The translations under genes were made by a program, and so were the position numbers. Source: Styela clava (lineage: Eukaryota > Chordata > Ascidiacea > Stolidobranchia > Styelidae). Taken from it: 64,000 bases of DNA. Below, piece by piece: positions 37,587 through 61,019 of this stretch. Location: positions 15,686,001 through 15,750,000 of the forward strand of contig NC_135261.1 in assembly GCF_964204865.1 (NCBI RefSeq). The letters run 5' to 3'. Positions within the stretch are counted from its first letter, which is position 1. Each line of letters opens with the position of its first letter. The notes beneath the pieces were generated by a model. The model made no database searches. It saw only the letters and a list, made by a program, of their open reading frames with translations, and was not told the origin of the DNA.

Positions 37587-38118
37587 TACTTTTGAAGTAT
37601 GCGCTTCTGAAAATGTTTTCTGACATTCGAATTACCAAATTTTATTCCGTGGATATTTCGAAAATATTTTAGGAAATGAATATATATATTTATATATTGA
37701 GTCCAACAAAGCGGCGGTGAAATTCTGATTATTTTATTGTGATTCTAAATATTTATCGCTTAGATGCAACTTCTATATTCATCAACAATACGAGATTCCT
37801 TGAGTATTGCTGGTCTTTTTAATCGATTTCCACCGAGAAAGTGTGGCTTCACTATTAAGTGAAAACAAAAATTCCAATCTGAACAATTTTAATAACACGA
37901 CTTATAATATATATATCAGAAAAATACTTGCTTGGGGATTTTGGAGATCTGCGCTTTACAATCAAATATTAGGCCTGAAATAAACTTCTTTAGAGTTTAG
38001 AGAACTATTCCTATTAAATTTCTGGTCGATGGTTTACCCTGGTCATTGTTCCATTTGATAAACCCTGCTTCAACAGCAGAGAATGATATATTTATGTCAA
38101 AAATTGTAATGCTTCAAG

Positions 38119-38124
38119 TTTATT
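38119..38124 (-). terminator. Poly(A) signal of peptide gene A
   Basis: AATAAA on the minus strand, 97 nt past the stop; conserved at the same distance in genes B, C and the hybrids. Confidence 0.65.
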
Positions 38125-38220: not shown

Positions 38221-39176
38221 TCATCCTATACTTGGCCCTCCTTTATCCAAGTCTTCAAAATCAGCAAGAAAATCTGTAACACGTATTTGTATATTTATAA
38301 TACACAATCATATGTAAATGATATCATCAATTAGAAGACTCCACTAAGTCAAGATTCCAATCTTCAATTTGAATTAGGTACGTGAGAATGTCATAACACA
38401 ACGGCGTCAATAGGGAATCATTTTAATTCAGCATTTCCGAAATGAAGTTCCAAATCGTAAAAAAGTTCGAATCGAAAATTGAATATACTTTAATTAACTA
38501 TACTATATGACTTTGTTAATTTTCAATTTGCTTGTAGGGATTACGATTGAACATTTCTGGTTGGAAATCGACAAAATTTTAAAACAATTCTATATATTGT
38601 CAGCCAACGTAATGCCATAATTGACCGCTCTAAATTTAGTATACATATGGATAGATTTATTGAGAGATTTTTAATTAGTTCGACGAAACATATCAAAAAC
38701 AAAATTTTACGGTTTTTATGGAAAAAATAAAAAATATATATACTCGGAGACTACTTTATACAATCTTACCAGCAAAATTGTCATCGTGAAAAATCGAACG
38801 TTTTTTCTTTGCCCAATTTATAGGCGGTGTTCGTCTGTTTGAAAGTAATTTAGTGTAAGAGATAAAAAGCGAGAGTGTACGACGATAATAGTGTTCGCAG
38901 CCATTTAATTTCGACTCAAGTACGTACGTAAATGAGTAGAATGTCAGTGATTTTGAAAAATTAAAAGTTTGCTTAAAGTCTGACAACACGAATTAAATTT
39001 CAAGCTCATATATATATATACCATCTTCTGAATATGACTTATTTTATAATTGTTTACCTCGTTTCCCCGTGGTCATTTATAGGCGCCGGAGTTGCACCGG
39101 TATCAAATGGTGTCACTTCAACAACCATAGCGGCATAAACAACAAAAACAGTTGCTGCGAAATATCTGAGTTTCAT
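38221..39176 (-). CDS. Secreted peptide precursor, type A (unrecognised family, 78 aa, three exons)
   Basis: Exons 39176-39058, 38834-38770 and 38273-38221 join in frame (phases 2 and 1) with GT-AG introns into 78 residues. Exon 1 encodes a signal peptide (MKLRYFAATVFVVYAAMV) and a Thr/Pro-rich stretch (TPFDTGATPAP). Exon 2 encodes PPINWAKKKRSIFHDDNFA, with a tetrabasic furin/convertase-type site at 49-52. Exon 3 encodes an acidic tail (DFLADFEDLDKGGPSIG). A TATA box lies 49-56 bp upstream of the ATG and an AATAAA 97 nt past the stop. Such a layout suits a processed secreted peptide (hormone-like, neuropeptide or host-defence), but the product and function are not known to me. Support comes from conservation of all exons, splice sites and control signals in genes B and C. 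Exon 3 lies just outside the tandem block, so this is the only complete type A gene. Confidence 0.75.
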
Positions 39177-39224
39177 CTTGCTTTGGTATCAGTTTGTAGC
39201 ATGTTCAAATGAAATCACTCGCTT

Positions 39225-39232
39225 TATTTATA
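39225..39232 (-). promoter_or_regulatory. TATA box of peptide gene A
   Basis: TATAAATA on the minus strand, 49 bp upstream of the ATG; the same motif and distance occur in genes B, C and both hybrids. Confidence 0.7.
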
Positions 39233-39840
39233 CGGCTATCTCTTTATTTCCTTAAGTAATAAAAAGCTTTCTACTCGAATGAATTATCGTTATCAATTTG
39301 AAAGTAGAGTCAATTTAATTAGCATAATCTGGGGTGGTGACTCTTCAATAGATAAGATCGGTTGCTATTTGGCTATGTTTTTTTGGGTTGAAACTGCTCA
39401 ATCACTTGCAAATAGGTCGATTTTTCTCGATAAGTACATATGACTGAGGTAATTAAGGAATGCATAATATCCACTTAACAATAAATATAGTAATAGCCAC
39501 AGAATCAATTAAAAGTGAAAAATTGATTGTATAAAGCTTGTTAAATTTTAGCTAATTTTTATCTTTCTTCTTTTTTATCTATTTAATAAATGTAATGATG
39601 ATAAGCGTAATGTATTCATTGTCAAAAAATTTCTTATTGTTTCAAAATTACATATTATCTATGCACATGTCTTAATCGTTTTTACATTCATGAACGATCC
39701 ACAATTGCAAAAACAAAAACCTTCTGTTAAATCGAGTTTCAGAATTTATTCCATATACTTATATCTATTACACTAATAATAATGTGACGACTATCTTATA
39801 GTCATAAAATTGGTATAATTGAACATATGATGTTACATAT

Positions 39841-40671
39841 CGTCAGGCTAATAACCGAATTGCGTAAGTCATTTTTGGCGGTTTTGAGTTTCTCGTAAAA
39901 TTGGTATTTATGTAATGCTGTGCACTGTCTGTTAACTCAGATTTTATTTTAAGAATTCCGAAACCCATAAAATTGGAGGTTTTGTATGACATGCACATTT
40001 ACGTAATTGTTTCGTCATAATGAACTATCATTGTTACCACAGGACTATTGTGACGTCACAAAGGCAAAATAACCTAGACTACGGATTTTTAAGTTTTTGC
40101 ATCTCAGATTCTAGCTTAGCGCATATAAATTTGAATTTTTACTACAGTATAGGAAGGCGTACACTTGTGATATTCACTGTCTGAGTCCAATTCAACTTAG
40201 TTGGCTTTTATATAGGGGACATTGCTGCTTGATTCTTTATATTTAATTTTAGTCTTATTTCGGTGGGTGTGCAGAACGTGTTATATAGTTATATACGATG
40301 AAGTATATATTTTTAAACATAAAAAATATTGTAATTAAAACAGATTAGCTATTTTGGAGATTACACATCGTAGATACTGAGAATTCCATTCGCCTTTTAG
40401 ATTGTTTGGTTTTCAGGACTGGTGCATATAGTCAAGTTGCAAAATTGCGTATGTCCCCAAGTCATAGACACATTTCTGCCTAAGTCACAGTGCGCCATTA
40501 TGACGTCACATAACTGCGTCATACAAATTAACTTAAATCCGGCTACGATCAAAAAATTGAACCATGGCAAATCATTGACTTTCAATGGCATAACAATATC
40601 ATTAGGAAGTTTTTTACGTTTTTCTCAAAACTGCTAAAAATGACTTACGCAATTCGGTTATTAGCGTGACG
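39841..40671. mobile_element. 831-bp MITE with long terminal inverted repeats (tandem copy 1)
   Basis: The ends are CGTCAGGCTAATAACCGA and, inward from the right, CGTCACGCTAATAACCGA; the inverted match runs for about 50-60 bp. ATAT flanks both sides (39837-39840, 40672-40675), giving a 2- to 4-bp target duplication. U2 (near 53735) and U3 (near 61672) have the uninterrupted site ACATATGGCGC. No coding capacity. It carries two consensus CRE palindromes, TGACGTCA, at 40051-40058 and 40501-40508. It sits upstream of peptide gene A. Confidence 0.85.
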
Positions 40672-41712
40672 ATATGGCGCTATAACTATTGACATTGTGC
40701 TTTTAAAAAATAAGAAGAGGTCATTGATTATCTTTCAACAACATAGTCATATACCTATCGAAAGAAAACAAATATTGAGGCAACGTTAAAGCATGGAAAA
40801 TAATATTTTAATTTTAAATTTAGTCCAAGGATTCCATACATCCACGCATATACATCAAGAAATCCAAATTTAATTTAATAATAACATTTAATAATAATAT
40901 CCATATTTTCGTTACATTGACTAGATTGACAATTTCGCAAAAAAGCAGTTTTACGCCCTACGCTTTCAGAAGAGCCTTTGAATTTTTTGCAATCTTTTTC
41001 TGTATAATTATATTTTCCAGAATATGCTGTCTCTGGAGAAATTCATTTTTTATGTTGTAAAAAGGGTTGATAAAATTTTTTCCATTGAATCGAAGCATCA
41101 TAATCAATTTAAAAACATATGTATGTACAGATGCATTGTTAGAAATAAAGAGGATTTTTTCGTGTGAAGGTAGCTGTCCATTCTGTTGTTGTTGTTGTTG
41201 CCGTGGGATACAATTTTCATATTGGAGAATAGAAGAAAACTGGAAATTCATAATTTTATTCTTGATGTTGCTATAGTGAGAAATTCTATACAATAATAGC
41301 GTGATGTGTTTAAACTCGGTTAACAATTCATTTCTTTTCCAGATTGTAATTTAGCACTATTCTCTTATTTACGTGATTTCAATACAATAAGCTCAACAAT
41401 CTCTAATTCAGCATTTATGCGATGCGAAAAATGTCTGTTCTAGTGATCCTGGTCCGCACAAAATAGTTGAATTGCTTCGAGTATTTGCGGTTTCAGCCCA
41501 TAATTCGATTACGCGACTTTCCAATAGACAGACATTTGGCACGCAATACTGTGTGTACTATTGCCTCTGATGGAATCAAGTAGCCTAGGTTATATATTAT
41601 GTTCCTGCGCTTTATAGTTCTTAAGTTTCAATCTTTCACGTTGATTCTTCGTGGTTACCTGTATCTCATTTTCTCATCCTGAAATGTTTTGTTTTTTTAT
41701 GTATAGCTCACA

Positions 41713-41958
41713 GTTGGCGAGTGCGTCGATCCCCAGGACACTAAAATCGTTCATGGTATGGCCTTTACTGTTGAAGTGGTTGACAACTGATGTTGGGGCT
41801 TTTTTCGAATATCCCTGATAGCGACAGAAAATTGAAGACGAGAATCTCGGACCACATCAGGGATATTCGAAGCACCAACACCAGTTGCCAATCAATTCAA
41901 GAGCAAATGCTACACCCTGAACGATTCCAGTGTCCTGGGAATCGACGCACTCACCAAC
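41713..41958. repeat. Imperfect foldback with PLE/GIY-YIG-like coding trace (tandem copy 1)
   Basis: Arms 41713-41820 and 41857-41958 are inverted copies at roughly 80% identity (for example GAGTGCGTCGAT with CGACGCACTC, and CGAATATCCCTGAT with ATCAGGGATATTCG), with a 36-bp loop. The right side reads RKLKTRISDHIRDIRSTNT, which resembles the C-terminal GIY-YIG region of Penelope-like elements, then shifts frame. The foldback is certain; the protein resemblance is tentative. Confidence 0.6.
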
Positions 41959-42169
41959 CGTCACTTCCAAATATTGTTCCATATCGCTGTGTTTGTTCAT
42001 ACTAAAAATGTATTTGACGTGTGTTTGCCCTTTAGCCTACATCTCCTATAGGAGCTAGACAACTTGCATATTAGTATTGGTTGCTAGCAAAAACACTTGG
42101 TTATTTATTGCAAACGATTCACAAAAATACGATGCTGCGCTGTGTTTTATGCATTTATTCAGCGCATGT

Positions 42170-43220
42170 TTGTGAAAGTCTGATTATTTTATTGTGCTCC
42201 TAAATATTTATCGCTTTCGTTGGGTATTGCTGCTCTTTTTAATCGATTTTTACCGAGGAAACGTGACTTCACGATTATGTGAAAACGTTAGGGATAAAAA
42301 ATTGCAATCTAAAAGATTTTAATAACATGGCGCATTCGCAAAACATCTGATCGGAGATTTAAGATCAGCGCTTTAAAAAAAATAGGCCTGAACCAAACCC
42401 CTTTAGAGTCTGTCAGAACTATTTCTATTGAATTAACCTGATCATTGTAACATTTGATCAGAACTCTGATCACCCTGCTTCAACAGTAGAGAATAATATA
42501 TTTGTCTCAAAAATTGCAAATCTTCAAGTTTATTTGATTTAAGAAAACAAATGTAAATGAATTCAATAAATTTCAGTTGAGTTCAAAATGGCACAGAAAG
42601 CTGTTTGAATTGCCGATGATTTGATCATTCGATCATTCACTTGGCTCTCCTTTATCCATGTTGTCAAAATCAGCAAGGAAGTCTGTAACACGTATTTGTA
42701 TATTAATAATACACAGTCAGATGTAAATGATATCATCGATTAGAAGACGCCATTAAGTCAAGATTTAAATCTTGAATTTGAATTATGTGAAGATGTAAAT
42801 ATATTTGAATAGTCTTCTGGCTAGACTTTTTTTTAAATTTTGGTTGATCTATGGAGCTTACGATTGAATAATTTTGGTGGGGACTCGACGAAATTTTTAA
42901 AATATTCTCTATATACAATGTCAGCCAACGTAATTCCATAATCGACAGCTCTAACTACAGTATACATATGGATAACTTTATTGAGAGATTTCTAATTAAT
43001 TCGACAAAACATATCAAGTACATATAAAATTATTAATTGTTTTATGGAAAAAAGAAGAAATTCATCCGGAGACGATTTTATAGAATCTTACCAGCAAAAT
43101 TGTCGTCGTGAAAAATCGAACGTTTTTTCTTTCCCCAATTCACAGGCGACGGTCCTCTGTTTGAAAGTATTACAGTATATATAAAAATAAGTCATCAAGA
43201 ATAAGAGTTTACGAAGATGA
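42170..43220. repeat. Duplicated segment U2, left part (also the end of tandem copy 1)
   Basis: Resembles U1 near 37715-38830 and U3 near 59530-60560 but is more diverged from either than the tandem copies are from each other. It continues, in copy 3 and beyond, at 52809-55049. It contains exons 3B and 2B. Confidence 0.65.
42529..42534 (-). terminator. Poly(A) signal of hybrid peptide gene 1
   Basis: AATAAA on the minus strand about 99 nt past the exon 3B stop. Confidence 0.6.
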
Positions 43221-43970
43221 TTCAGCATTTCCGAAATGAAGTTCCAAATCGTAAAAAAGTTCGAATCGAAAATTGAATATACTTTAATTAACTATACTAT
43301 ATGACTTTGTTAATTTTCAATTTGCTTGTAGGGATTACGATTGAACATTTCTGGTTGGAAATCGACAAAATTTTAAAACAATTCTATATATTGTCAGCCA
43401 ACGTAATGCCATAATTGACCGCTCTAAATTTAGTATACATATGGATAGATTTATTGAGAGATTCTTAATTAGTTCGACGAAACATATCAAAAACAAAATT
43501 TTACGGTTTTTATGGAAAAAATAAAAAATATATATACTCGGAGACTACTTTATACAATCTTACCAGCAAAATTGTCATCGTGAAAAATCGAACGTTTTTT
43601 CTTTGCCCAATTTATAGGCGGTGTTCGTCTGTTTGAAAGTAATTTAGTGTAAGAGATAAAAAGCGAGAGTGTACGACGATAATAGTGTTCGCAGCCATTT
43701 AATTTCAACTCAAGTACGTACGTAAATGAGTAGAATGTCAGTGATTTTGAAAAATTAAAAGTTTGCTTAAAGTCTGACAACACGAATTAAATTTCAAGCT
43801 CATATATATATATACCATCTTCTGAATATGACTTATTTTATAATTGTTTACCTCGTTTCCCCGTGGTCATTTATAGGCGCCGGAGTTGCACCGGTATCAA
43901 ATGGTGTCACTTCAACAACCATAGCGGCATAAACAACAAAAACAGTTGCTGCGAAATATCTGAGTTTCAT
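42633..43970 (-). CDS. Hybrid A/B secreted peptide gene 1, with two alternative second exons
   Basis: Exon 1A 43970-43852, exon 2A 43628-43564, exon 2B 43156-43092, exon 3B 42682-42633. Exons 2A and 2B are each 65 nt, enter at phase 2 and leave at phase 1. Either 1A-2A-3B or 1A-2B-3B gives a 77-residue precursor. Joining both shifts the frame and meets a stop six codons into 2B. The predicted isoforms differ in PPINWAKKKR versus GPSPVNWGKKKR before a common acidic tail (DFLADFDNMDKGEPSE). A TATA box (44019-44026) and a poly(A) signal are intact. The gene was created at the tandem junction, which fuses intron 2 of type A to intron 1 of type B. Whether it is transcribed, and which exon is used, is not visible. 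Confidence 0.65.
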
Positions 43971-44018
43971 CTTGCTTTGGTATCAGTTTGTAGCATGTTC
44001 AAATGAAATCACTCGCTT

Positions 44019-44026
44019 TATTTATA
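44019..44026 (-). promoter_or_regulatory. TATA box of hybrid peptide gene 1
   Basis: TATAAATA on the minus strand, 49 bp upstream of the ATG at 43970. Confidence 0.65.
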
Positions 44027-44634
44027 CGGCTATCTCTTTATTTCCTTAAGTAATAAAAAGCTTTCTACTCGAATGAATTATCGTTATCAATTTGAAAGTA
44101 GAGTCAATTTAATTAGCATAATCTGGGGTGGTGACTCTTCAATAGATAAGATCGGTTGCTATTTGGCTATGTTTTTTTGGGTTGAAACTGCTCAATCACT
44201 TGCAAATAGGTCGATTTTTCTCGATAAGTACATATGACTGAGGTAATTAAGGAATGCATAATATCCACTTAACAATAAATATAGTAATAGCCACAGAATC
44301 AATTAAAAGTGAAAAATTGATTGTATAAAGCTTGTTAAATTTTAGCTAATTTTTATCTTTCTTCTTTTTTATCTATTTAATAAATGTAATGATGATAAGC
44401 GTAATGTATTCATTGTCAAAAAATTTCTTATTGTTTCAAAATTACATATTATCTATGCACATGTCTTAATCGTTTTTACATTCATGAACGATCCACAATT
44501 GCAAAAACAAAAACCTTCTGTTAAATCGAGTTTCAGAATTTATTCCATATACTTATATCTATTACACTAATAATAATGTGACGACTATCTTATAGTCATA
44601 AAATTGGTATAATTGAACATATGATGTTACATAT

Positions 44635-45465
44635 CGTCAGGCTAATAACCGAATTGCGTAAGTCATTTTTGGCGGTTTTGAGTTTCTCGTAAAATTGGTA
44701 TTTATGTAATGCTGTGCACTGTCTGTTAACTCAGATTTTATTTTAAGAATTCCGAAACCCATAAAATTGGAGATTTTGTATGACATGCACATTTACGTAA
44801 TTGTTTCGTCATAATGAACTATCATTGTTACCACAGGACTATTGTGACGTCACAAAGGCAAAATAACCTAGACTACGGATTTTTAAGTTTTTGCATCTCA
44901 GATTCTAGCTTAGCGCATATAAATTTGAATTTTTACTACAGTATAGGAAGGCGTACACTTGTGATATTCACTGTCTGAGTCCAATTCAACTTAGTTGGCT
45001 TTTATATAGGGGACATTGCTGCTTGATTCTTTATATTTAATTTTAGTCTTATTTCGGTGGGTGTGCAGAACGTGTTATATAGTTATATACGATGAAGTAT
45101 ATATTTTTAAACATAAAAAATATTGTAATTAAAACAGATTAGCTATTTTGGAGATTACACATCGTAGATACTGAGAATTCCATTCGCCTTTTAGATTGTT
45201 TGGTTTTCAGGACTGGTGCATATAGTCAAGTTGCAAAATTGCGTATGTCCCCAAGTCATAGACACATTTCTGCCTAAGTCACAGTGCGCCATTATGACGT
45301 CACATAACTGCGTCATACAAATTAACTTAAATCCGGCTACGATCAAAAAATTGAACCATGGCAAATCATTGACTTTCAATGGCATAACAATATCATTAGG
45401 AAGTTTTTTACGTTTTTCTCAAAACTGCTAAAAATGACTTACGCAATTCGGTTATTAGCGTGACG
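44635..45465. mobile_element. 831-bp MITE (tandem copy 2)
   Basis: Same element as 39841-40671, carried along by the tandem duplication rather than inserted independently. CRE palindromes are at 44845-44852 and 45295-45302. Confidence 0.85.
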
Positions 45466-46506
45466 ATATGGCGCTATAACTATTGACATTGTGCTTTTAA
45501 AAAATAAGAAGAGGTCATTGATTATCTTTCAACAACATAGTCATATACCTATCGAAAGAAAACAAATATTGAGGCAACGTTAAAGCATGGAAAATAATAT
45601 TTTAATTTTAAATTTAGTCCAAGGATTCCATACATCCACGCATATACATCAAGAAATCCAAATTTAATTTAATAATAACATTTAATAATAATATCCATAT
45701 TTTCGTTACATTGACTAGATTGACAATTTCGCAAAAAAGCAGTTTTACGCCCTACGCTTTCAGAAGAGCCTTTGAATTTTTTGCAATCTTTTTCTGTATA
45801 ATTATATTTTCCAGAATATGCTGTCTCTGGAGAAATTCATTTTTTATGTTGTAAAAAGGGTTGATAAAATTTTTTCCATTGAATCGAAGCATCATAATCA
45901 ATTTAAAAACATATGTATGTACAGATGCATTGTTAGAAATAAAGAGGATTTTTTCGTGTGAAGGTAGCTGTCCATTCTGTTGTTGTTGTTGTTGCCGTGG
46001 GATACAATTTTCATATTGGAGAATAGAAGAAAACTGGAAATTCATAATTTTATTCTTGATGTTGCTATAGTGAGAAACTCTATACAATAATAGCGTGATG
46101 TGTTTAAACTCGGTTAACAATTCATTTCTTTTCCAGATTGTAATTTAGCACTATTCTCTTATTTACGTGATTTCAATACAATAAGCTCAATAATCTCTAA
46201 TTCAGCATTTATGCGATGCGAAAAATGTCTGTTCTAGTGATCCTGGTCCGCACAAAATAGTTGAATTGCTTCGAGTATTTGCGGTTTCAGCCCATAATTC
46301 GATTACGCGACTTTCCAATAGACAGACATTTGGCACGCAATACTGTGTGTACTATTGCCTCTGATGGAATCAAGTAGCCTAGGTTATATATTATGTTCCT
46401 GCGCTTTATAGTTCTTAAGTTTCAATCTTTCACGTTGATTCTTCGTGGTTACCTGTATCTCATTTTCTCATCCTGAAATGTTTTGTTTTTTTATGTATAG
46501 CTCACA

Positions 46507-46752
46507 GTTGGCGAGTGCGTCGATCCCCAGGACACTAAAATCGTTCATGGTATGGCCTTTACTGTTGAAGTGGTTGACAACTGATGTTGGGGCTTTTTTC
46601 GAATATCCCTGATAGCGACAGAAAATTGAAGACGAGAATCTCGGACCACATCAGGGATATTCGAAGCACCAACACCAGTTGCCAATCAATTCAAGAGCAA
46701 ATGCTACACCCTGAACGATTCCAGTGTCCTGGGAATCGACGCACTCACCAAC
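46507..46752. repeat. Imperfect foldback (tandem copy 2)
   Basis: Same structure as 41713-41958, shifted by 4794 bp. Confidence 0.6.
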
Positions 46753-47322
46753 CGTCACTTCCAAATATTGTTCCATATCGCTGTGTTTGTTCATACTAAA
46801 AATGTATTTGACGTGTGTTTGCCCTTTAGCCTACATCTCCTATAGGAGCTAGACAACTTGCATATTAGTATTGGTTGCTAGCAAAAACACTTGGTTATTT
46901 ATTGCAAACGATTCACAAAAATACGATGCTGCGCTGTGTTTTATGCATTTATTCAGCGCATGTTTGTGAAAGTCTGATTATTTTATTGTGCTCCTAAATA
47001 TTTATCGCTTTCGTTGGGTATTGCTGCTCTTTTTAATCGATTTTTACCGAGGAAACGTGACTTCACGATTATGTGAAAACGTTAGGGATAAAAAATTGCA
47101 ATCTAAAAGATTTTAATAACATGGCGCATTCGCAAAACATCTGATCGGAGATTTAAGATCTGCGCTTTAAAAAAAATAGGCCTGAACCAAACCCCTTTAG
47201 AGTCTGTCAGAACTATTTCTATTGAATTAACCTGATCATTGTAACATTTGATCAGAACTCTGATCACCCTGCTTCAACAGTAGAGAATAATATATTTGTC
47301 TCAAAAATTGCAAATCTTCAAG

Positions 47323-47328
47323 TTTATT
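47323..47328 (-). terminator. Poly(A) signal of hybrid peptide gene 2
   Basis: AATAAA on the minus strand about 99 nt past the stop at 47427. Confidence 0.6.
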
Positions 47329-47426
47329 TGATTTAAGAAAACAAATGTAAATGAATTCAATAAATTTCAGTTGAGTTCAAAATGGCACAGAAAGCTGTTT
47401 GAATTGCCGATGATTTGATCATTCGA

Positions 47427-48764
47427 TCATTCACTTGGCTCTCCTTTATCCATGTTGTCAAAATCAGCAAGGAAGTCTGTAACACGTATTTGTATATTAA
47501 TAATACACAGTCAGATGTAAATGATATCATCGATTAGAAGACGCCATTAAGTCAAGATTTAAATCTTGAATTTGAATTATGTGAAGATGTAAATATATTT
47601 GAATAGTCTTCTGGCTAGACTTTTTTTTAAATTTTGGTTGATCTATGGAGCTTACGATTGAATAATTTTGGTGGGGACTCGACGAAATTTTTAAAATATT
47701 CTCTATATACAATGTCAGCCAACGTAATTCCATAATCGACAGCTCTAACTACAGTATACATATGGATAACTTTATTGAGAGATTTCTAATTAATTCGACA
47801 AAACATATCAAGTACATATAAAATTATTAATTGTTTTATGGAAAAAAGAAGAAATTCATCCGGAGACGATTTTATAGAATCTTACCAGCAAAATTGTCGT
47901 CGTGAAAAATCGAACGTTTTTTCTTTCCCCAATTCACAGGCGACGGTCCTCTGTTTGAAAGTATTACAGTATATATAAAAATAAGTCATCAAGAATAAGA
48001 GTTTACGAAGATGATTCAGCATTTCCGAAATGAAGTTCCAAATCGTAAAAAAGTTCGAATCGAAAATTGAATATACTTTAATTAACTATACTATATGACT
48101 TTGTTAATTTTCAATTTGCTTGTAGGGATTACGATTGAACATTTCTGGTTGGAAATCGACAAAATTTTAAAACAATTCTATATATTGTCAGCCAACGTAA
48201 TGCCATAATTGACCGCTCTAAATTTAGTATACATATGGATAGATTTATTGAGAGATTCTTAATTAGTTCGACGAAACATATCAAAAACAAAATTTTACGG
48301 TTTTTATGGAAAAAATAAAAAATATATATACTCGGAGACTACTTTATACAATCTTACCAGCAAAATTGTCATCGTGAAAAATCGAACGTTTTTTCTTTGC
48401 CCAATTTATAGGCGGTGTTCGTCTGTTTGAAAGTAATTTAGTGTAAGAGATAAAAAGCGAGAGTGTACGACGATAATAGTGTTCGCAGCCATTTAATTTC
48501 AACTCAAGTACGTACGTAAATGAGTAGAATGTCAGTGATTTTGAAAAATTAAAAGTTTGCTTAAAGTCTGACAACACGAATTAAATTTCAAGCTCATATA
48601 TATATATACCATCTTCTGAATATGACTTATTTTATAATTGTTTACCTCGTTTCCCCGTGGTCATTTATAGGCGCCGGAGTTGCACCGGTATCAAATGGTG
48701 TCACTTCAACAACCATAGCGGCATAAACAACAAAAACAGTTGCTGCGAAATATCTGAGTTTCAT
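47427..48764 (-). CDS. Hybrid A/B secreted peptide gene 2, with two alternative second exons
   Basis: Same layout as hybrid gene 1, shifted by 4794 bp: exon 1A 48764-48646, 2A 48422-48358, 2B 47950-47886, 3B 47476-47427. Coding exons are the same as in hybrid gene 1 by eye, so both genes would yield the same two alternative 77-residue precursors. TATA box at 48813-48820. The near-identity means short reads could not tell the two genes apart. Confidence 0.65.
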
Positions 48765-48812
48765 CTTGCTTTGGTATCAGTTTGTAGCATGTTCAAATGA
48801 AATCACTCGCTT

Positions 48813-48820
48813 TATTTATA
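48813..48820 (-). promoter_or_regulatory. TATA box of hybrid peptide gene 2
   Basis: TATAAATA on the minus strand, 49 bp upstream of the ATG at 48764. Confidence 0.65.
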
Positions 48821-49428
48821 CGGCTATCTCTTTATTTCCTTAAGTAATAAAAAGCTTTCTACTCGAATGAATTATCGTTATCAATTTGAAAGTAGAGTCA
48901 ATTTAATTAGCATAATCTGGGGTGGTGACTCTTCAATAGATAAGATCGGTTGCTATTTGGCTATGTTTTTTTGGGTTGAAACTGCTCAATCACTTGCAAA
49001 TAGGTCGATTTTTCTCGATAAGTACATATGACTGAGGTAATTAAGGAATGCATAATATCCACTTAACAATAAATATAGTAATAGCCACAGAATCAATTAA
49101 AAGTGAAAAATTGATTGTATAAAGCTTGTTAAATTTTAGCTAATTTTTATCTTTCTTCTTTTTTATCTATTTAATAAATGTAATGATGATAAGCGTAATG
49201 TATTCATTGTCAAAAAATTTCTTATTGTTTCAAAATTACATATTATCTATGCACATGTCTTAATCGTTTTTACATTCATGAACGATCCACAATTGCAAAA
49301 ACAAAAACCTTCTGTTAAATCGAGTTTCAGAATTTATTCCATATACTTATATCTATTACACTAATAATAATGTGACGACTATCTTATAGTCATAAAATTG
49401 GTATAATTGAACATATGATGTTACATAT

Positions 49429-50259
49429 CGTCAGGCTAATAACCGAATTGCGTAAGTCATTTTTGGCGGTTTTGAGTTTCTCGTAAAATTGGTATTTATG
49501 TAATGCTGTGCACTGTCTGTTAACTCAGATTTTATTTTAAGAATTCCGAAACCCATAAAATTGGAGATTTTGTATGACATGCACATTTACGTAATTGTTT
49601 CGTCATAATGAACTATCATTGTTACCACAGGACTATTGTGACGTCACAAAGGCAAAATAACCTAGACTACGGATTTTTAAGTTTTTGCATCTCAGATTCT
49701 AGCTTAGCGCATATAAATTTGAATTTTTACTACAGTATAGGAAGGCGTACACTTGTGATATTCACTGTCTGAGTCCAATTCAACTTAGTTGGCTTTTATA
49801 TAGGGGACATTGCTGCTTGATTCTTTATATTTAATTTTAGTCTTATTTCGGTGGGTGTGCAGAACGTGTTATATAGTTATATACGATGAAGTATATATTT
49901 TTAAACATAAAAAATATTGTAATTAAAACAGATTAGCTATTTTGGAGATTACACATCGTAGATACTGAGAATTCCATTCGCCTTTTAGATTGTTTGGTTT
50001 TCAGGACTGGTGCATATAGTCAAGTTGCAAAATTGCGTATGTCCCCAAGTCATAGACACATTTCTGCCTAAGTCACAGTGCGCCATTATGACGTCACATA
50101 ACTGCGTCATACAAATTAACTTAAATCCGGCTACGATCAAAAAATTGAACCATGGCAAATCATTGACTTTCAATGGCATAACAATATCATTAGGAAGTTT
50201 TTTACGTTTTTCTCAAAACTGCTAAAAATGACTTACGCAATTCGGTTATTAGCGTGACG
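49429..50259. mobile_element. 831-bp MITE (tandem copy 3)
   Basis: Third copy of the element described at 39841-40671. CRE palindromes are at 49639-49646 and 50089-50096. Confidence 0.85.
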
Positions 50260-51300
50260 ATATGGCGCTATAACTATTGACATTGTGCTTTTAAAAAATA
50301 AGAAGAGGTCATTGATTATCTTTCAACAACATAGTCATATACCTATCGAAAGAAAACAAATATTGAGGCAACGTTAAAGCATGGAAAATAATATTTTAAT
50401 TTTAAATTTAGTCCAAGGATTCCATACATCCACGCATATACATCAAGAAATCCAAATTTAATTTAATAATAACATTTAATAATAATATCCATATTTTCGT
50501 TACATTGACTAGATTGACAATTTCGCAAAAAAGCAGTTTTACGCCCTACGCTTTCAGAAGAGCCTTTGAATTTTTTGCAATCTTTTTCTGTATAATTATA
50601 TTTTCCAGAATATGCTGTCTCTGGAGAAATTCATTTTTTATGTTGTAAAAAGGGTTGATAAAATTTTTTCCATTGAATCGAAGCATCATAATCAATTTAA
50701 AAACATATGTATGTACAGATGCATTGTTAGAAATAAAGAGGATTTTTTCGTGTGAAGGTAGCTGTCCATTCTGTTGTTGTTGTTGTTGCCGTGGGATACA
50801 ATTTTCATATTGGAGAATAGAAGAAAACTGGAAATTCATAATTTTATTCTTGATGTTGCTATAGTGAGAAACTCTATACAATAATAGCGTGATGTGTTTA
50901 AACTCGGTTAACAATTCATTTCTTTTCCAGATTGTAATTTAGCACTATTCTCTTATTTACGTGATTTCAATACAATAAGCTCAACAATCTCTAATTCAGC
51001 ATTTATGCGATGCGAAAAATGTCTGTTCTAGTGATCCTGGTCCGCACAAAATAGTTGAATTGCTTCGAGTATTTGCGGTTTCAGCCCATAATTCGATTAC
51101 GCGACTTTCCAATAGACAGACATTTGGCACGCAATACTGTGTGTACTATTGCCTCTGATGGAATCAAGTAGCCTAGGTTATATATTATGTTCCTGCGCTT
51201 TATAGTTCTTAAGTTTCAATCTTTCACGTTGATTCTTCGTGGTTACCTGTATCTCATTTTCTCATCCTGAAATGTTTTGTTTTTTTATGTATAGCTCACA

Positions 51301-51546
51301 GTTGGCGAGTGCGTCGATCCCCAGGACACTAAAATCGTTCATGGTATGGCCTTTACTGTTGAAGTGGTTGACAACTGATGTTGGGGCTTTTTTCGAATAT
51401 CCCTGATAGCGACAGAAAATTGAAGACGAGAATCTCGGACCACATCAGGGATATTCGAAGCACCAACACCAGTTGCCAATCAATTCAAGAGCAAATGCTA
51501 CACCCTGAACGATTCCAGTGTCCTGGGAATCGACGCACTCACCAAC
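51301..51546. repeat. Imperfect foldback (tandem copy 3)
   Basis: Same structure as 41713-41958, shifted by 9588 bp. Confidence 0.6.
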
Positions 51547-52116
51547 CGTCACTTCCAAATATTGTTCCATATCGCTGTGTTTGTTCATACTAAAAATGTA
51601 TTTGACGTGTGTTTGCCCTTTAGCCTACATCTCCTATAGGAGCTAGACAACTTGCATATTAGTATTGGTTGCTAGCAAAAACACTTGGTTATTTATTGCA
51701 AACGATTCACAAAAATACGATGCTGCGCTGTGTTTTATGCATTTATTCAGCGCATGTTTGTGAAAGTCTGATTATTTTATTGTGCTCCTAAATATTTATC
51801 GCTTTCGTTGGGTATTGCTGCTCTTTTTAATCGATTTTTACCGAGGAAACGTGACTTCACGATTATGTGAAAACGTTAGGGATAAAAAATTGCAATCTAA
51901 AAGATTTTAATAACATGGCGCATTCGCAAAACATCTGATCGGAGATTTAAGATCTGCGCTATAAAAAAAATAGGCCTGAACCAAACCCCTTTAGAGTCTG
52001 TCAGAACTATTTCTATTGAATTAACCTGATCATTGTAACATTTGATCAGAACTCTGATCACCCTGCTTCAACAGTAGAGAATAATATATTTGTCTCAAAA
52101 ATTGCAAATCTTCAAG

Positions 52117-52122
52117 TTTATT
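52117..52122 (-). terminator. Poly(A) signal of peptide gene B
   Basis: AATAAA on the minus strand about 99 nt past the stop at 52221. Confidence 0.65.
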
Positions 52123-52220
52123 TGATTTAAGAAAACAAATGTAAATGAATTCAATAAATTTCAGTTGAGTTCAAAATGGCACAGAAAGCTGTTTGAATTG
52201 CCGATGATTTGATCATTCGA

Positions 52221-53112
52221 TCATTCACTTGGCTCTCCTTTATCCATGTTGTCAAAATCAGCAAGGAAGTCTGTAACACGTATTTGTATATTAATAATAC
52301 ACAGTCAGATGTAAATGATATCATCGATTAGAAGACGCCATTAAGTCAAGATTTAAATCTTGAATTTGAATTATGTGAAGATGTAAATATATTTGAATAG
52401 TCTTCTGGCTAGACTTTTTTTTAAATTTTGGTTGATCTATGGAGCTTACGATTGAATAATTTTGGTGGGGACTCGACGAAATTTTTAAAATATTCTCTAT
52501 ATACAATGTCAGCCAACGTAATTCCATAATCGACAGCTCTAACTACAGTATACATATGGATAACTTTATTGAGAGATTTCTAATTAATTCGACAAAACAT
52601 ATCAAGTACATATAAAATTATTAATTGTTTTATGGAAAAAAGAAGAAATTCATCCGGAGACGATTTTATAGAATCTTACCAGCAAAATTGTCGTCGTGAA
52701 AAATCGAACGTTTTTTCTTTCCCCAATTCACAGGCGACGGTCCTCTGTTTGAAAGTATTACAGTATATATAAAAATAAGTCATCAAGAATAAGAGTTTAC
52801 GAAGATGATAGTGTTTGCCCTTGAAGCCATTTAATTTCGACTCAAATATGTGCGTAAACGATCAGAATGTCATTGATTTGAAAAAAAGGAAAAATTGCTT
52901 AAAGTCTGACAACAAGAATTAAATTTCAAGCTCATACATACACACATATATATATTTATATACCATCCTTTGAATATGACGTATTTTATAACTGCTTACC
53001 TCGTTTCCCCATTGTTATTTGTAGGCGCTGGAGTTGCGCCGGTATCAAATGGTGTCACTTCAACTACCATAGCGGCATATACAACAAAAAGTGCAAAATA
53101 TCCAAGTTTCAT
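52221..53112 (-). CDS. Secreted peptide precursor, type B (unrecognised family, 75 aa, three exons)
   Basis: Exons 53112-53000, 52744-52680 and 52270-52221 join in frame to 75 residues. Signal peptide MKLGYFALFVVYAAMVV; then TPFDTGATPAPTNNNGETR; then GPSPVNWGKKKRSIFHDD; tail DFLADFDNMDKGEPSE. Type B alone has Gly before the basic run (WGKKKR, Gly46). If KKKR is cut and trimmed, that Gly would be an amide donor, as in amidated neuropeptides and some host-defence peptides. Types A and C have Ala there. The exon 3 tail ends GEPSE instead of GGPSIG because of changes around the stop. TATA box at 53160-53167. Introns are about 255 and 410 bp. Function unknown; the gene model is supported by three-way conservation. 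Confidence 0.75.
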
Positions 53113-53159
53113 CTTGCTTTGCTGTCAGTTTGTAACATGTTTCTATATATCATGCGCTG

Positions 53160-53167
53160 TATTTATA
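53160..53167 (-). promoter_or_regulatory. TATA box of peptide gene B
   Basis: TATAAATA on the minus strand, 48 bp upstream of the ATG at 53112. Confidence 0.7.
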
Positions 53168-54239
53168 CAGCTTTAGCTTTCTACTTAAAGGAATTATCGT
53201 TATCGATTTAAAAGTAGAGTCAATTTAATTCGCCTAATCTGGGGTGGTGACTCTTCAATAGATAAGATCGGTTGCTATTTAGCCATGTTTCTTTGGATTG
53301 AGACTCATCAATTATCTTGCAAATGAATCAATTTTTCTCAATAAGTATATATGACTGAGGTAATTATGGGATGCATAATATCCACTTAACAATAAATATA
53401 GTAATAGTCTCGCGGAATCACTTAAATAGGAAAAATTAATTGAATTAAGCTTGTTCAATTTTCATTAAGTTTTATCTTTCTTCAATCTATCAACAAATGT
53501 AATGACAATAAGTGTTCAATTCATCGTCAAAAACTAATTGATTTCAAAATTACATATTATCTATGCACATTTCTTAATCGCTTTTACTTTTATGAACGAT
53601 CCACAATTGCAAAAACGAGAACCTTCAGTTAAAAAAGATTCGGAATTTATTTCATATACTTATATCCATGACACTAATAATAATGTGAAGACTATCTTAG
53701 TCATAAAATTGGTATAATTGAACATATGATTTTACATATGGCGCTATAATTATTGAGATTATGATTTTGAAAAATTAAAATGGAGTCTTTGATTCTCTTT
53801 TAACAACGTAGCCATTTACTTATCGAAGGAAAACAAATATTGAGAGAACATAAAACATGAAAAAATAAAGTTTTTAGTTTGAATTCAGTCCAAGGATTCC
53901 ATACATACATGCATATACATCAGGAAATCCAAATTTAATTTCATATCAATAATATCCATATTTCCATTTCATTGACTAGGTTCATAATCTCGCAAAAAAT
54001 AAGAACTATTACGCCCCTCGCTCTAAGTCTAAGTGGAGCCTTTGAATTTTTTCCAATATTTTTCTGTATAATTATATTTTCCAGAATATGCTGTCTGTGA
54101 AGAAATTCGTTTGTTATGGTGTAAAGAGGGGTTGATAAAATTTATTCCATTGAATCGAAAAGGAGCATCATAATCAATCTTGAAAACTTATGTATGAACT
54201 TTTAACTTAGTGTCAAAAGTTACGCCACTCCGATACATT

Positions 54240-54325
54240 ATTAGAAATAAATTAGAATTATAAATTAGATATTATTAGATTAGATATAATTAGATTAGAT
54301 ATAATTAGATAAATTAGAAATAAAG
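54240..54325. repeat. AT-rich minisatellite (TTAGATATAA/TTAGATAAAT units)
   Basis: Several imperfect copies of ATTAGATTAGATATA. The matching tract at about 62175-62265 in U3 has a different copy number. Confidence 0.75.
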
Positions 54326-55049
54326 AGATCGGTGCTTTTGCTAAAATATGGCTGTCCATTCGGATGTTGTTGTTGCTTTAGGATAAAATAGAGTTTTTTG
54401 AGTCTAGTTGAGTGCGACTTGTAGCTTTTCATGCAAAAAAATGCTCGTTTAAAACAATTTATCGAGCTTTGTCATCTGAAAAGCTGTTGCTATAGAGGAA
54501 ACTCTTTTCAATAATAGCGTGATGGGATAAAAAATTATGGTTATCAATTCATTACTTATCGATCTTGATCGGTAAGTATGTTGATAAGTATTTTTCTCTT
54601 TGTCTGTTAGATAAACGCGATATCTCACGAAAGCGAGGATGAATCCGCTCTAAATTTTGCCAATGCATTCATCATATCTTGCATCAGAAGCCTATTGATT
54701 TTGGATGAATTATGTTGTATAATTAGCGAGTTATTGATTAATTAGTGATGGGACACGCGGTGTCACTAATGAGTGAGAGCGAAAGATACACGCCGCGATA
54801 AGTCGGCGGTCTCTGATCGCTATCTAGTTTAATATTCAGATTGTAATTTTGCAATATTCATTTCTTTACATGAGTTCAATAGAATAAGCACAACAATCTC
54901 GAATTCAGCGTTTATGCCATTTGGAAAATGTCTGTTCTCATAATCCTGTGCCGCGCCAGATTAAATTGCTCTCCGAGCATTTGCGGTTTCGGCCAATTCT
55001 CGTATATTCCGCTTTAAACATTTGGCACACAATACTTTGTGTTCTATTG

Positions 55050-55430
55050 CAGTGGTTCCCAACCTTTCTACCCTGGCGGACCGGTAAAATTGGATTAAAT
55101 GTTCTCGCGGACCGGTAAAAAATTGAAATGACCGGAAGGAAACGACTAACATATATTTGCGTAATATAAAGCGATGTCGGGCACTCAATATGCTTTTAGG
55201 AAAAAAAGGCGCACTTATAAACATTTCACACGAAGGAAAACTATCAAATAATGTGACGGCCAGAAATTGAAATGGGTGAAACATAAAATAATACCATATA
55301 TTTGCGTAATGAAAATCTGTGTTGGGCACCAATTATGCGCAAGAAAGGCACTTATAAAACATCTCACATAAAAATTATGTACATGCCAAATCATGTACAA
55401 ACACAATTAACTCTAGTGAGAATTTTGCTG
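55050..55430. mobile_element. Left part of a hAT-type element in U2
   Basis: Starts CAGTGGTTCCCAACCTTTC, then ACCCTGGCGGACCGG, typical of a hAT non-autonomous end. U1 has uninterrupted sequence at the matching point (near 41570). The same insertion is at 63177 in U3, so it predates the U2/U3 split. The right end was not found. Confidence 0.55.
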
Positions 55431-57556
55431 CTGTTTCGTCTCTATATATGTGGATATAATAATGTGAGATAAACTGCCTGAATATATTTAGATTTGATAC
55501 ATGCTTTTGGGCTCTTGCAAATTCGTTATCGCCACTATAAAAATCCCAAGATATGCGATAAAATCCCGGAAAGTACAATTTAATTAAGGGCAATAAAAAA
55601 ACATATAAAGCGTATATATCAAACATACACATTATTCATCCTCTCGAAATCTCCAGAAACGAAATGTGTTGCTTCATTAATTTATTGATAGTGATCAATT
55701 TAATCTGCGATTGCCACAATAGAAATAGTATCTCTGCTCCAAAATATCAACACAATCCGTGGACATAAACATGTACGATTATATTTTGCTTTGATTCGTA
55801 TTTTTGCAAATTAAAAAACATATCTGAGCTGTTGATGCAACACTCATTCCGCTCCATCGCAATGCTGTCACTCATTATTTCAAAGATATCACCTTGAGAA
55901 AAAAACCTTAAGTCAGCGATAATATCCCACAGAGTAAATTTATTTCAAAAAATGAATTAAATATACTTTACATTAATTATTATACATATATCATAGTCGG
56001 TCGCGCCCCGTCGAACACAAAATGTTTTTGCAATGTCAAAAATCATCTTTAATCTGTCACCGGCCATCCTGGAATAAAACTTAAATGGTGTTTTTTATTT
56101 TTTAGTATTTTATAATGCCCTTTTCAATCAAGAAAATCTGAGTCACGAATTCACTTCTTTGTTTATCTTAGCATCTTGTCACACATGATTATGTAATAAC
56201 TCGTTTCTCACAAGTGCTGTGGTTGTTTGAGAACAATAAAGTAATTTTAGGTGTCCTTGTGGCACAAAACATATGCTGAGGGAAATTTGTGATCACGCTG
56301 ACAAAAACAATTGACAATTTTCACAAATTGCAATCTCATGTGTATCGGTAATAGCCGTTCACTCGTGATGCACACACCAATGCGGCAACTTTAAATATGG
56401 TATTCACGGCATTGAAATTCCAGATTCACAGCACGAGAACGATGATTCATTTAAACTCACCTGATGGGGACGTTATAGGGATGCTATCGCGGTAGATATT
56501 TTATGGTCCTAATTGAATAACTGAATAATGAGCACACCTGGAAAAAATTAAAATTATCATACTCGCCCAATAGGCCCCCCTAAAATCAGGCCAAAAATTT
56601 AGGTCCAGAAATTCGCCGGGAAATATGGTAATATGTGGGAATTAATTTTTGTTAATCTGGACTCTATATAATCATAATTATAATCTAATATCTGTTTAGT
56701 CGCTCTACTAGGATAATCCCAGGCATACACAATGCGGAAAAACTTTTTCATCCAAAGCTATACAATAGTTTTGTAGTTGTCCAATTAATTTTCATGTGTA
56801 CAATGCTGCAATGGTTTAGTTTAAAGTCACTTCGTAAGTTTAGTTAAGAAGTTGGATTGAAGAAATTTTGAAATTAATGACATTTGAAAAATTAGTGCTT
56901 TTGAAGGAATAACAAATAAAAGTATCGCTTTGATAAAGTTCACCATCATTGCATCAAAAAAGTTATTTTCCAAATGAACACTGGCAAATGGAAATATCAT
57001 AAGGTCATGTTTTTCCTATATCGACGCCTCAAAACCAAACAGTGCTAAGTCCTCTTTTCCCAAAAATGACATTTTTTAACCGCTGTTTAAGTAGTACGGT
57101 AACTAACAAATTGCATGTTTGAATTAGTAGTGTTATTAGCCCACAAGTAAGAGCAGAACAAAAGTTTAACCTACAAATAAACTTCAGCATGAACAATCAC
57201 CAGACTGCCAGGTCACTGATTTCGACTGCAAAGTTGCGCTAAGCTCAAAATCGGATTTGGATTTACCGCTGGTCAACGGTTAATGGATCTTTTCACCGAC
57301 CCTTGACCCCAGAAAATTGTAGACTAGTCTATTCGCAGCTTTTATGATTTTATTTCGACTCCATTATCAGCATAATAGACGATAAAACAATTTATAAGAA
57401 CAAAATAAATAAAACTGATTACAGAATTGGGAGAGCAAACAAAACCGTAAGTAAGGTTTGGGACGTACAGATTTTAGATGAAAAGGTATTGATAATAAAG
57501 TAGTACGCGTTCGCTCACCCAAATTTTTCGGGACTAAATTTTGAATATTGTAGTAA

Positions 57557-57957
57557 CTGGACCGTAAATATATACTACTACTAGATGTCCAACTCCGCTC
57601 GCCGTATAATAAACAAACAAAGGCGATGTTGCACCTCCAAGTGGCGGGCGTCACGGTTGGTTTTGTTCAGACTAGATGCTTAACGACGACGACGCTCCTG
57701 CAGCTCGAAAACTAGCCCTGTTCATTGATGACCGATCGAAATATTTTCTGAAGGACGAAGAAATTCGATAAAAATGAACAAATAATTGTGAAAACGAAGA
57801 CACAGTCTGTCTTGCAAATGACCAGGATGATGTGACAACTTCCTTGTCGAAAGAAAGCAAGGCATCAAAAATGCGATGCATTGCAAAAAATGTCAGTCAG
57901 ATGTAGGTAAAGTGGTGACGAAAATGAATACTTTGCACTTTATATAAAAAAAAAATT
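57557..57957. other. Insertion of about 400 bp in U3 relative to U1, A-rich at one end
   Basis: U1 reads GTAGTAACTGAACTAAATCTC without interruption near 33430. U3 carries extra sequence between GTAACTGGACC and TTAGCTAAATCTC, GC-richer than its surroundings and ending in A10 followed by TTAGC. This may be a retrotransposed fragment, but no clear target duplication or protein match was found. Confidence 0.45.
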
Positions 57958-59720
57958 AGCTAAATCTCATCGAAAAACATAACGACAAATAAATTACTTC
58001 ATTTGCAACTAATTTTCGGCTATTCACATGAAAACTGACAAAAAAAAGGGAAAAACGCGAAAACGAGGCAATGCTGTCTGAGTGAACAAAACGTCTGAGC
58101 TGCTGCAAAAATTGTAATTGTGACATCATCTTAAAATCCTTGCTGATTGGTAATTGTTACGGATAAAACAAGGAAATCGATGCTCGGGGATACATCCATT
58201 CAGAGAGTGATTTTTGTGCATAACTGGTTTAAACAGGAAATTTTCGTCCAGTGGTATAGGGCCACATCTCTAGATACTGGAATATGTTGCTTTTTCTTTC
58301 TAAAGATTTTCAATTTTGTTGGATACTATACGAAAAATAACTCAAAGTAGAATTATACAAAAAGAACTATCGTGGCGCTACACACATCAGTAAGCAGTAA
58401 ACATTTTCAACGAAATATAAACTTGGCTAACATAGTGACTAAACACTGACAAAAATTTAACACTGGCACTGAATCGGATATTGAAATAGTCGTTTAGGAC
58501 TAGGTGTCAATTGATAACGCATTAACTTTGATGGCGGAGGAAAGCGTAACCGACCCGCGTAACCGACTAGTTTACAGTTCATTCGATCTCCCACTGGTTT
58601 CCCAACTAGAAGCTCGAAGTAAGCTCCGTCTCCAGTGATTTATTAGGCTCTAAGCGGTATTTCTTAACGAGCACTGTTAACACCAAGATAAAACTAACCA
58701 ATCCCATACTCGAGATGGCTGGTAACCGGAAGAGAGGCTGTGATGCGCCATATGATTGAGCCGTCTAATCGCCTTTTCTATCCCCGAGATAAATAAGTAA
58801 AGCCTATCCTAAAAATGAATTACATAATCATTGTTCTCCTGATCAGGGAAAATCGGTAGGCCTCTACCTCTTTGTATCCTTGTTGTCGTTGAAAAAAATC
58901 GCTTATGTCTTCAATTACTGCACCAATTGCTTTGGAATTTTCAGTGGTTAAATATTGTTGTTGTCGTTATAAGATCTTCAATGTTATTTATTTCAAACAT
59001 TTCTGTAGAATTAATGGGATTCGTTTGTACATTGAAGTTCTGTGTGAATACATCATCATTGCGCACTGTATTGCAATTCCGCAATCGCATTTCATCGATA
59101 TTGTCGACATCGAAGCGCGGGATTGTTTTGATGTATATATAAGGTAGACTACTGGTAATACAAAAATTTCATATTACTTCGTTTTGGTCTCCGTGTTCAT
59201 ATATTTGAGCATTACTCTCTTGTTCACGTAATAATAGCCTACCTTTAAAAGAAGCCGATGTGCGCGTTTCGCACATGAAATCGAGTCTGCAACCCACTTC
59301 CTAAATTTTAAAAATAATAATATTTTTTTTTAATACGGCCAAAAAGGTTCAGAACAAATGTGGCAAAGTGATACTACACAAGCGCTGGTCAGTGACTTAC
59401 ACATGAGTACTTTTGAAGTATGCGCTTCTGAAAATGTTTTCTGACATTCGAATTATCAAATTTTATTCGGTGGATATTTCGAAAATATTTTAGGAAATGA
59501 ATATATATATATATTGAGTCCAACAAAGTGGCGGCGAAATTCTGATTATTTTATTGTGATTCTAAATATTAATCGTCTAGATGCAACTTCTATATTCATC
59601 AACAATACGAGATTTCATTGAGTATTGCTGGTCATTTTAATCGATTTCCACCTAGGTAGCGTGGCTTCGCTATTAAGTGGAAACAAAAATTGCAATCTGA
59701 ACAATTTTATTGACATGACT

Positions 59721-59742
59721 TATATATATATATATATATATA
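59721..59742. repeat. (TA)n microsatellite
   Basis: About eleven TA units in U3; the matching tract in U1 near 37905 is shorter. Confidence 0.8.
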
Positions 59743-59955
59743 TCAGAAAAATACTTGCTTGGGGATTTTAGAGATCTGTGTTTCACAATCAATTATTAGG
59801 CCTGAAATAACCTTCTTTAAAGTTTAGAGAACTATTCCTATTAAATTTCTGGTCCATGGTTTACCCTGGTCCTTGTTCCATTTGATAAAATTCTAATCAC
59901 CCTGCTTCAGCAGCAGAGAATGATATATTTATGTCAAAAATTGTAATGTTTCAAG

Positions 59956-59961
59956 TTTATT
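59956..59961 (-). terminator. Poly(A) signal of peptide gene C
   Basis: AATAAA on the minus strand, 98 nt past the stop at 60059. Confidence 0.65.
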
Positions 59962-60058
59962 TGATCTAAAAATAAAAATGACAATGCGATTGCATTCAAT
60001 AAATTTCAGTTGATTTCAAAATTTCACAGAAAGCTGTCTTGAATTCCCGACCGTTCGA

Positions 60059-61019
60059 TCATCCTATGCTTGGCCCTCCTTTATCCATGTCCTCAAAATC
60101 AGCAAGAAAATCTGTAACACGTATTTGCATATTTATAAAACACAATCAGATGTAAATGATATCATCAATTCGAAGACTCCACTAAGTCAATATTCCAATC
60201 TTCAATTTGAATTACGTGAGAATGTCATAACACAACGGTGTCAATAAGGAATCATTTTAATTCAGCATTTCCAAAATGAAGTTCCAAATCGTAAAAATGT
60301 TCGAATCGAAAATTGAATATACATTCAAATCGTATTCTAGCTGGACTTTGTTAATTTTAATTTGCCTGTATTGAGAAATTTTTAATTAATTCGACAAAAC
60401 ATATCAATTACATATAAAACTATTAATTGTTTTATGGAAAAAGGAAGAAATTCATTCGGAGACGATTTTTTAGAATCTTACCAGCAAAATTGTCGTCGTG
60501 AAAAATTGAACGTTTTTTCTTTGCCCAATTCACAGGCGACGGTCCTCTGTTTGAAAGTATTACAGTATAAGAATAAGTCATCGAAAATAAGAGTGTACGA
60601 AGATGATAGTGTTTGCACTTGGAGCCATTTAATTTCGACTCAAGTATGTGCGTAAAAGATAAGAATATCATTGATTTGGAAAAAATGAAAGATTGCTTAA
60701 AATCTGACAACAAGAATTAAATTTCAAGCTTATACATATATATATATATATACCATTCTTTGGGATCTCCTGAAGTATGCGCATCAAGATGGCGCATAAC
60801 CTGAACTCAGGTTGTGTACCAGGTTAGGTTCAGGTTGTGCGACATCTTGGTGCGCATACTTCAGGAGTACCATTCTTTGAATATGACCTATTTTATAACT
60901 GCTTACCTTGTTTCCCCATTGTTATTTGTAGGGGCTGGAAATTCGCCGGTATCAAATGGTGTCACTTCAACTACCATAGCGGCATATACAACGAAAAGTG
61001 CAAAATATCCAAGTTTCAT
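60059..61019 (-). CDS. Secreted peptide precursor, type C (unrecognised family, 76 aa, three exons)
   Basis: Exons 61019-60907, 60546-60482 and 60111-60059 join in frame to 76 residues. The signal peptide is identical to type B (MKLGYFALFVVYAAMVV). The following segment has GEFPAP in place of GATPAP. Exon 2 reads GPSPVNWAKKKRSIFHDD, with Ala before the basic site as in type A, and the tail is DFLADFEDMDKGGPSIG. Gene C therefore combines the B-like body with the A-like tail and cleavage context, consistent with the A and C end being ancestral. TATA box at 61068-61075. Intron 1 carries a 105-bp hairpin insertion (60763-60867) that leaves the splice sites intact. Function unknown. Confidence 0.75.
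60751..60879. mobile_element. 105-bp hairpin insertion with 12-bp target duplication in gene C intron 1
   Basis: 60763-60867 is almost all hairpin. The arms start CTCCTGAAGTATGCGCAT on the left and end ATGCGCACTTCAGGAG-like sequence on the right (about 40 bp each, three mismatches), with a 21-bp loop. TACCATTCTTTG flanks it at 60751-60762 and 60868-60879. Gene B has a single TACCATCCTTTG at the same point (52962-52973), so the insertion is clean. Confidence 0.8.

Follow-up and report, generated by a model that had tools for sequence, protein, structure and literature searches.

We analysed a 64,000 nucleotide (nt) stretch of the Styela clava genome (contig NC_135261.1 of assembly GCF_964204865.1, forward-strand positions 15,686,001 to 15,750,000), called the window below and used for all coordinates. 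Between 38221 and 61019 it holds a cluster of minus-strand copies of a gene that appears to encode short secreted peptide precursors. The five signal-peptide exons described in the first-pass annotation were all found, with starts at 39176, 43970, 48764, 53112 and 61019, and in total the window contains five copies of exon 1, seven of exon 2 and five of exon 3. Only three of the copies are simple three-exon genes, here called A1 (38221-39176), B (52221-53112) and C (60059-61019). Their joined exons give open frames of 78, 75 and 76 amino acids (aa), all six introns are GT-AG and there are no frame breaks, which bears out the claim that the diverged versions keep the frame and the splice sites. 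In each of them exon 2 is 65 nt long and encodes KKKR, and exon 3 is short and acidic. The described layout of an in-phase 65 nt KKKR exon followed by an acidic last exon thus holds for A1, B and C. It does not hold for the two other copies, A2 and A3, which carry two 65 nt exons, and the description of "three exons each" fails for these two of the five. The parts of the three simple genes are as follows.

39058..39176, minus strand: A1 exon 1 (119 nt; start codon, hydrophobic leader, linker)
38770..38834, minus strand: A1 exon 2 (65 nt, KKKR)
38221..38273, minus strand: A1 exon 3 (53 nt; acidic tail, stop); predicted protein 78 aa
39225..39232, minus strand: A1 TATAAATA
38119..38124, minus strand: A1 AATAAA, 97 nt past the stop
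53000..53112, minus strand: B exon 1 (113 nt)
52680..52744, minus strand: B exon 2 (65 nt, KKKR)
52221..52270, minus strand: B exon 3 (50 nt); predicted protein 75 aa
53160..53167, minus strand: B TATAAATA
60907..61019, minus strand: C exon 1 (113 nt), B-like
60482..60546, minus strand: C exon 2 (65 nt, KKKR), B-like
60059..60111, minus strand: C exon 3 (53 nt), A1-like; predicted protein 76 aa
61068..61075, minus strand: C TATAAATA

The sequence TATAAATA, a TATA box, had been placed at about -49 of each exon 1 copy; in B it spans -55 to -48 from the ATG, in the other four copies (A1, A2, A3 and C) -56 to -49. Both strands of the window together have 17 occurrences of this 8-mer, five of which are these sites upstream of exon 1. 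AATAAA starts 97-99 nt past the stop, in line with the roughly 98 nt reported for every copy. Further upstream, about 125-195 nt before the ATG, a block of about 46 nt is identical in A1 (39325-39370), B and C, with the matching stretches lying upstream of 53112 and 61019; it includes CTTATC, which we take to be a GATA-factor-like word. Gene C is a mosaic, with exons 1 and 2 nearest to B and exon 3 along with the 3' flank nearest to A1. Its intron 1 carries a palindromic insert (60760-60870) resembling a miniature inverted-repeat transposable element, bounded by direct repeats of roughly 11 nt and not present in B.

The A2 and A3 copies arise from a tandem triplication. Self-comparison of the window revealed a 4794 nt unit (38426-43219) in three tandem copies that are 99.9% identical, and a gapless comparison gave 6, 2 and 6 differences between units 1 and 2, 2 and 3, and 1 and 3, hence units 2 and 3 are mutually closest. 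As the repeat junction joins intron 2 of gene A to intron 1 of gene B, the copies starting at 43970 and 48764 are chimeras with two successive 65 nt exons, in the order exon1A-exon2A-exon2B-exon3B.

38426..52809: tandem triplication, unit 4794 nt (starts 38426, 43220 and 48014), 99.9% identical
43852..43970, minus strand: A2 exon 1 (A type)
43564..43628, minus strand: A2 first 65 nt exon (A type)
43092..43156, minus strand: A2 second 65 nt exon (B type)
42633..42682, minus strand: A2 exon 3 (B type)
48646..48764, minus strand: A3 exon 1 (A type)
48358..48422, minus strand: A3 first 65 nt exon (A type)
47886..47950, minus strand: A3 second 65 nt exon (B type)
47427..47476, minus strand: A3 exon 3 (B type)

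With either exon 2 alone the chimeras have an open frame of 77 aa, while with both included translation runs five residues into exon 2B before a premature stop, which in A2 lies 48 nt upstream of the last junction. It should be noted that A2 and A3 are no independent evidence for the family, as they lie in repeats that differ at only 2 to 6 sites, and that the 4794 nt array may be an assembly artefact. The self-comparison also showed a larger block at 28.9-38.5 kilobases (kb) that recurs with gaps at 55.5-60.4 kb.

To judge coding potential we compared A1, B and C pairwise, without A2 and A3, since these two consist of copied A1-type and B exons. The ratio of nonsynonymous to synonymous substitution rates (dN/dS) was 0.33 for A1-B, 0.20 for A1-C and 0.29 for B-C on about 49 synonymous sites, with dN at 0.05-0.09 and dS at 0.16-0.40. 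In a neutral simulation the probability of so few amino acid changes was 0.0001-0.0009 for A1-C, 0.02-0.04 for B-C and 0.06-0.10 for A1-B, the three pairs being mutually dependent, and a premature stop appeared in 27-53% of the runs. Variable columns fell 11, 6 and 18 times on codon positions 1, 2 and 3 (chi-square P 0.044). The two exonic indel events, of 6 and 3 nt, are both multiples of three; in the A1-B noncoding alignments this applies to 5 of 30 gaps, end gaps counted. The proposed comparison of dN/dS with intron divergence was supportive in that dN is below dS in all pairs; against it, the raw identities of exons (0.82-0.97) and introns (0.72-0.87) overlap, and exons are not in every case the more alike. 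A pattern of exon divergence equal to intron divergence together with frame breaks, which had been named as the sign of a false prediction, was not what we found, given zero frame breaks and dN below dS. Coding genes under mild constraint are by far the likeliest reading of this small sample.

The family had not been recognised at first sight, and our protein, Pfam, NCBIfam, PDB and printed-sequence searches were all without a meaningful match. A search with the gene C protein, run without a short-peptide positive control, covered proteins 0.55-1.75 times as long, a range that a longer fused annotation would escape; no candidate had three 5-residue words in common with it. Since the database includes S. 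clava proteins, the genes look unannotated as proteins of that size, and the cluster is apparently unannotated. Up to E 1, Pfam returned no family for any of the three proteins, and Rfam gave no matches at the gathering score; the best PDB match was a nucleoprotein at E 1.3, and the best NCBIfam match, at E 0.11, was far under its cut-off. Six peptide words were unmatched in the full text of 5.39 million open-access papers, a scope that leaves outside most subscription journals and all supplements.

All three precursors lack cysteine and fall in the 50-100 aa range of the Cys-free precursors of ascidian linear cationic alpha-helical antimicrobial peptides (AMPs). The N-terminal leader, a putative signal peptide, reaches a hydropathy peak of 2.5-2.7 over 11 residues. 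KKKR is invariant in all three and is followed by 15 invariant residues, and FH-DD, four residues after KKKR, is likewise invariant. A cut at FH-DD would give a core of 34 residues with a charge of +2 to +3 and a tail of -6 to -7, with the start assumed at PFDTG. A separation of basic and acidic charge as strong as this was reached by only 8 (A1), 47 (B) and 9 (C) of 5000 shuffles. Applying the window limits of PMC7387483, we found 5, 4 and 4 cationic windows within the published hydrophobicity, moment and charge limits. C-terminal windows within the anionic limits numbered 9, 9 and 10, by a numeric criterion and not by helicity, and in all three precursors the cationic windows lie ahead of these anionic ones. 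The presence of a cationic window is a weak test, as at least one was also found in 844-1531 of 5000 shuffles. A helical-moment test on the residues that follow KKKR gave no significance, with 406-430 of 2000 shuffles reaching the observed value.

We tentatively suggest, at a probability of about 0.43, that these are real, recently amplified Styela clava genes for secreted precursors of 75-78 aa whose core is a lineage-restricted host-defence peptide. The N-terminal hydrophobic leader would bring the precursor into the secretory pathway, and the acidic C-terminal piece would keep the basic, proline-containing core quiet. Proteolysis before DD, following the clavanin rule, or after KKKR would free the core, which could then act as a host-defence peptide restricted to the lineage, perhaps stored in hemocytes.

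This proposal builds on the known ascidian peptides. According to PMC7387483 most antimicrobial candidates of Ciona are ordered as signal, cationic region and anionic C-terminal region, no basic processing motifs were found at the boundary of core and propiece, and styelins and clavanins are reported to be cut N-terminal to D and DD. Our precursors resemble the linear cationic alpha-helical AMPs of Ciona described there (Ci-MAM, Ci-PAP and others) in being short and Cys-free and in the order of leader, cationic and anionic C-terminal parts. They differ in the proline-holding core, the mostly weaker amphipathicity and the KKKR four residues before DD. With styelins and clavanins they share the origin in Styela clava and a DD at a fitting place for the reported cut, but styelins are Phe-rich and clavanins His-rich, both are described as alpha-helical, and by these descriptions our core is set apart. 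CiEMa, a Ciona hemocyte peptide, is according to PMC10888236 likewise a short lineage-specific secreted precursor reported without database relatives. It is amidated via a C-terminal Gly, and the same could apply to A1 and C, which end in Gly at the stop. Judged by description, CiEMa differs in its processing, in which cleavage of two unusual bonds, Trp-Asn and Gly-Asp, yields 14 residues. By analogy, the signal, cationic and anionic order together with the invariant FH-DD, as in ascidian AMP precursors, suggests that KKKR may belong to the active peptide instead of being a hormone-type cleavage site. The first-pass view of a peptide precursor stands as far as real-looking genes and short, apparently secreted products are concerned, whereas KKKR as a hormone-type processing site seems doubtful, given the Ciona boundary without basic motifs and the FH-DD four residues past KKKR.

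The distribution of amino acid change points partly to the core. For A1-B, nonsynonymous changes number 5.5 on 27.7 sites in the 12 codons ending with KKKR, 5 on 86.7 sites before and 5 on 61.7 after; for A1-C the values are 4.5 on 27.7, 8 on 87.3 and 1 on 63.3. The densest change in these two pairs thus falls in the 12 codons ending with KKKR, which is the pattern that an effector role of the core would predict.

Several observations weigh against host defence. The tail changes most in B-C (4 on 62.0 sites, with 1 on 27.7 in the core and 3 on 87.0 before), and A1-C is most conserved in the acidic tail, with 1 nonsynonymous and 4 synonymous changes there, which also fits the tail as the active peptide. 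The net core charge is small (+2 to +3), and the layout screen is weak alone, as 478-785 of 5000 shuffles pass it. The core holds prolines (Pro and Gly together 2-5 per passing 18-residue core window), and the passing windows have a helical moment of 0.16-0.23. Ci-MAM-A and Ci-PAP-A, at 0.42-0.51, lie above the core, and the windows of the Ciona control entry KH.S921.1 range from 0.15 up to 0.57. With these prolines the core is no clear amphipathic helix, and any membership in known families is thus putative. Profile comparison found no sequence similarity to the published Ciona peptides, with a best E of 0.15; the comparison covered 18 of the 22 tabulated genes, represented by 22 entries.

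A possible, if rather unlikely, alternative is a secreted peptide of another tissue, such as tunic, follicle, gonad or gut, that is neither antimicrobial nor hormonal. Lineage-restricted small secreted proteins are common, which counts in its favour. Further, a species-specific Ciona peptide of 51 aa is reported to act in ovarian follicles (PMC10570924). No result speaks directly against such a peptide, but it predicts nothing specific on the charge layout.

We consider it unlikely that the genes encode a precursor of hormone or neuropeptide type, in which a convertase would cut after KKKR and the active product would be the conserved acidic peptide of 25-26 aa, with the terminal Gly of A1 and C serving for C-terminal amidation. 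The invariant basic convertase site with the invariant residues after it would suit such a precursor, as would the Gly ends of A1 and C and the numerous species-specific neuropeptides reported for Ciona in PMC8936170. On the other hand, B, A2 and A3 have no terminal Gly, the product would be strongly acidic (-6 to -7), and no known peptide family was matched in the protein database, Pfam or open-access printed sequences. The recent tandem amplification with chimeras also speaks against a hormone, as such amplification is commoner in defence and secretory genes. For a lineage-restricted secreted peptide family we regard host defence as more likely than a hormone.

That the copies are non-functional, being relics or a non-coding transcribed repeat with accidental open frames, is very improbable: the negative protein search in a database holding S. 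clava proteins, the weak constraint for A1-B and the overlap of exon and intron identity would agree with it, but dN/dS is below 0.35 in all three pairs, and A1, B and C have kept GT-AG introns, unbroken frames, TATA box and AATAAA.

Returning to host defence, we speculate that the locus is forming chimeric genes in which the core-encoding exon is present twice, as alternatives, and that the core, proline-containing, tetrabasic, non-helical and freed before an anionic tail starting with DD, might represent a new class of styelid host-defence peptides, a suggestion that must be called doubtful. Alternative core exons in one gene would in such a class make two core variants possible by exon choice.

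The cluster is flanked by a KIF24-like kinesin gene (27012-12621, minus strand), whose exon pieces were compared by tblastn with S. clava LOC120329853: all 14 matched, at 90-100% identity, and for the longest three (303, 243 and 117 residues) identity was 98-100%. An insect origin of the window, considered from its composition, was rejected on the strength of these matches. About 2.85 kb at 34735-37587 are present in one copy of a duplicated block and absent from the other. This segment holds two adjacent transposase open reading frames on the minus strand, 37032-36178 and 36177-35068, with a stop between them; the second has a DDE_1 domain (E 6.3e-11), and the transposase is 52% identical to S. 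clava protein LOC144419992. An inverted repeat at 30661-31540 has arms of 361 nt that are 99.2% identical and spaced by 158 nt. A minisatellite with 16, 32 and 64 nt units forms two arrays in inverted orientation, 2959-3491 and 6655-7046, with long open frames, and an open reading frame at 4680-5615 (minus strand) contains a MULE transposase domain (E 3.7e-9).

Styela clava has a long study history as a source of antimicrobial peptides. Its tandem cluster of secreted-peptide genes appears to be absent from the protein annotation, a hint that peptide genes of the short multi-exon type escape notice in tunicate genomes. The chimeric copies would represent a very early phase of exon duplication inside a gene that codes for a peptide.

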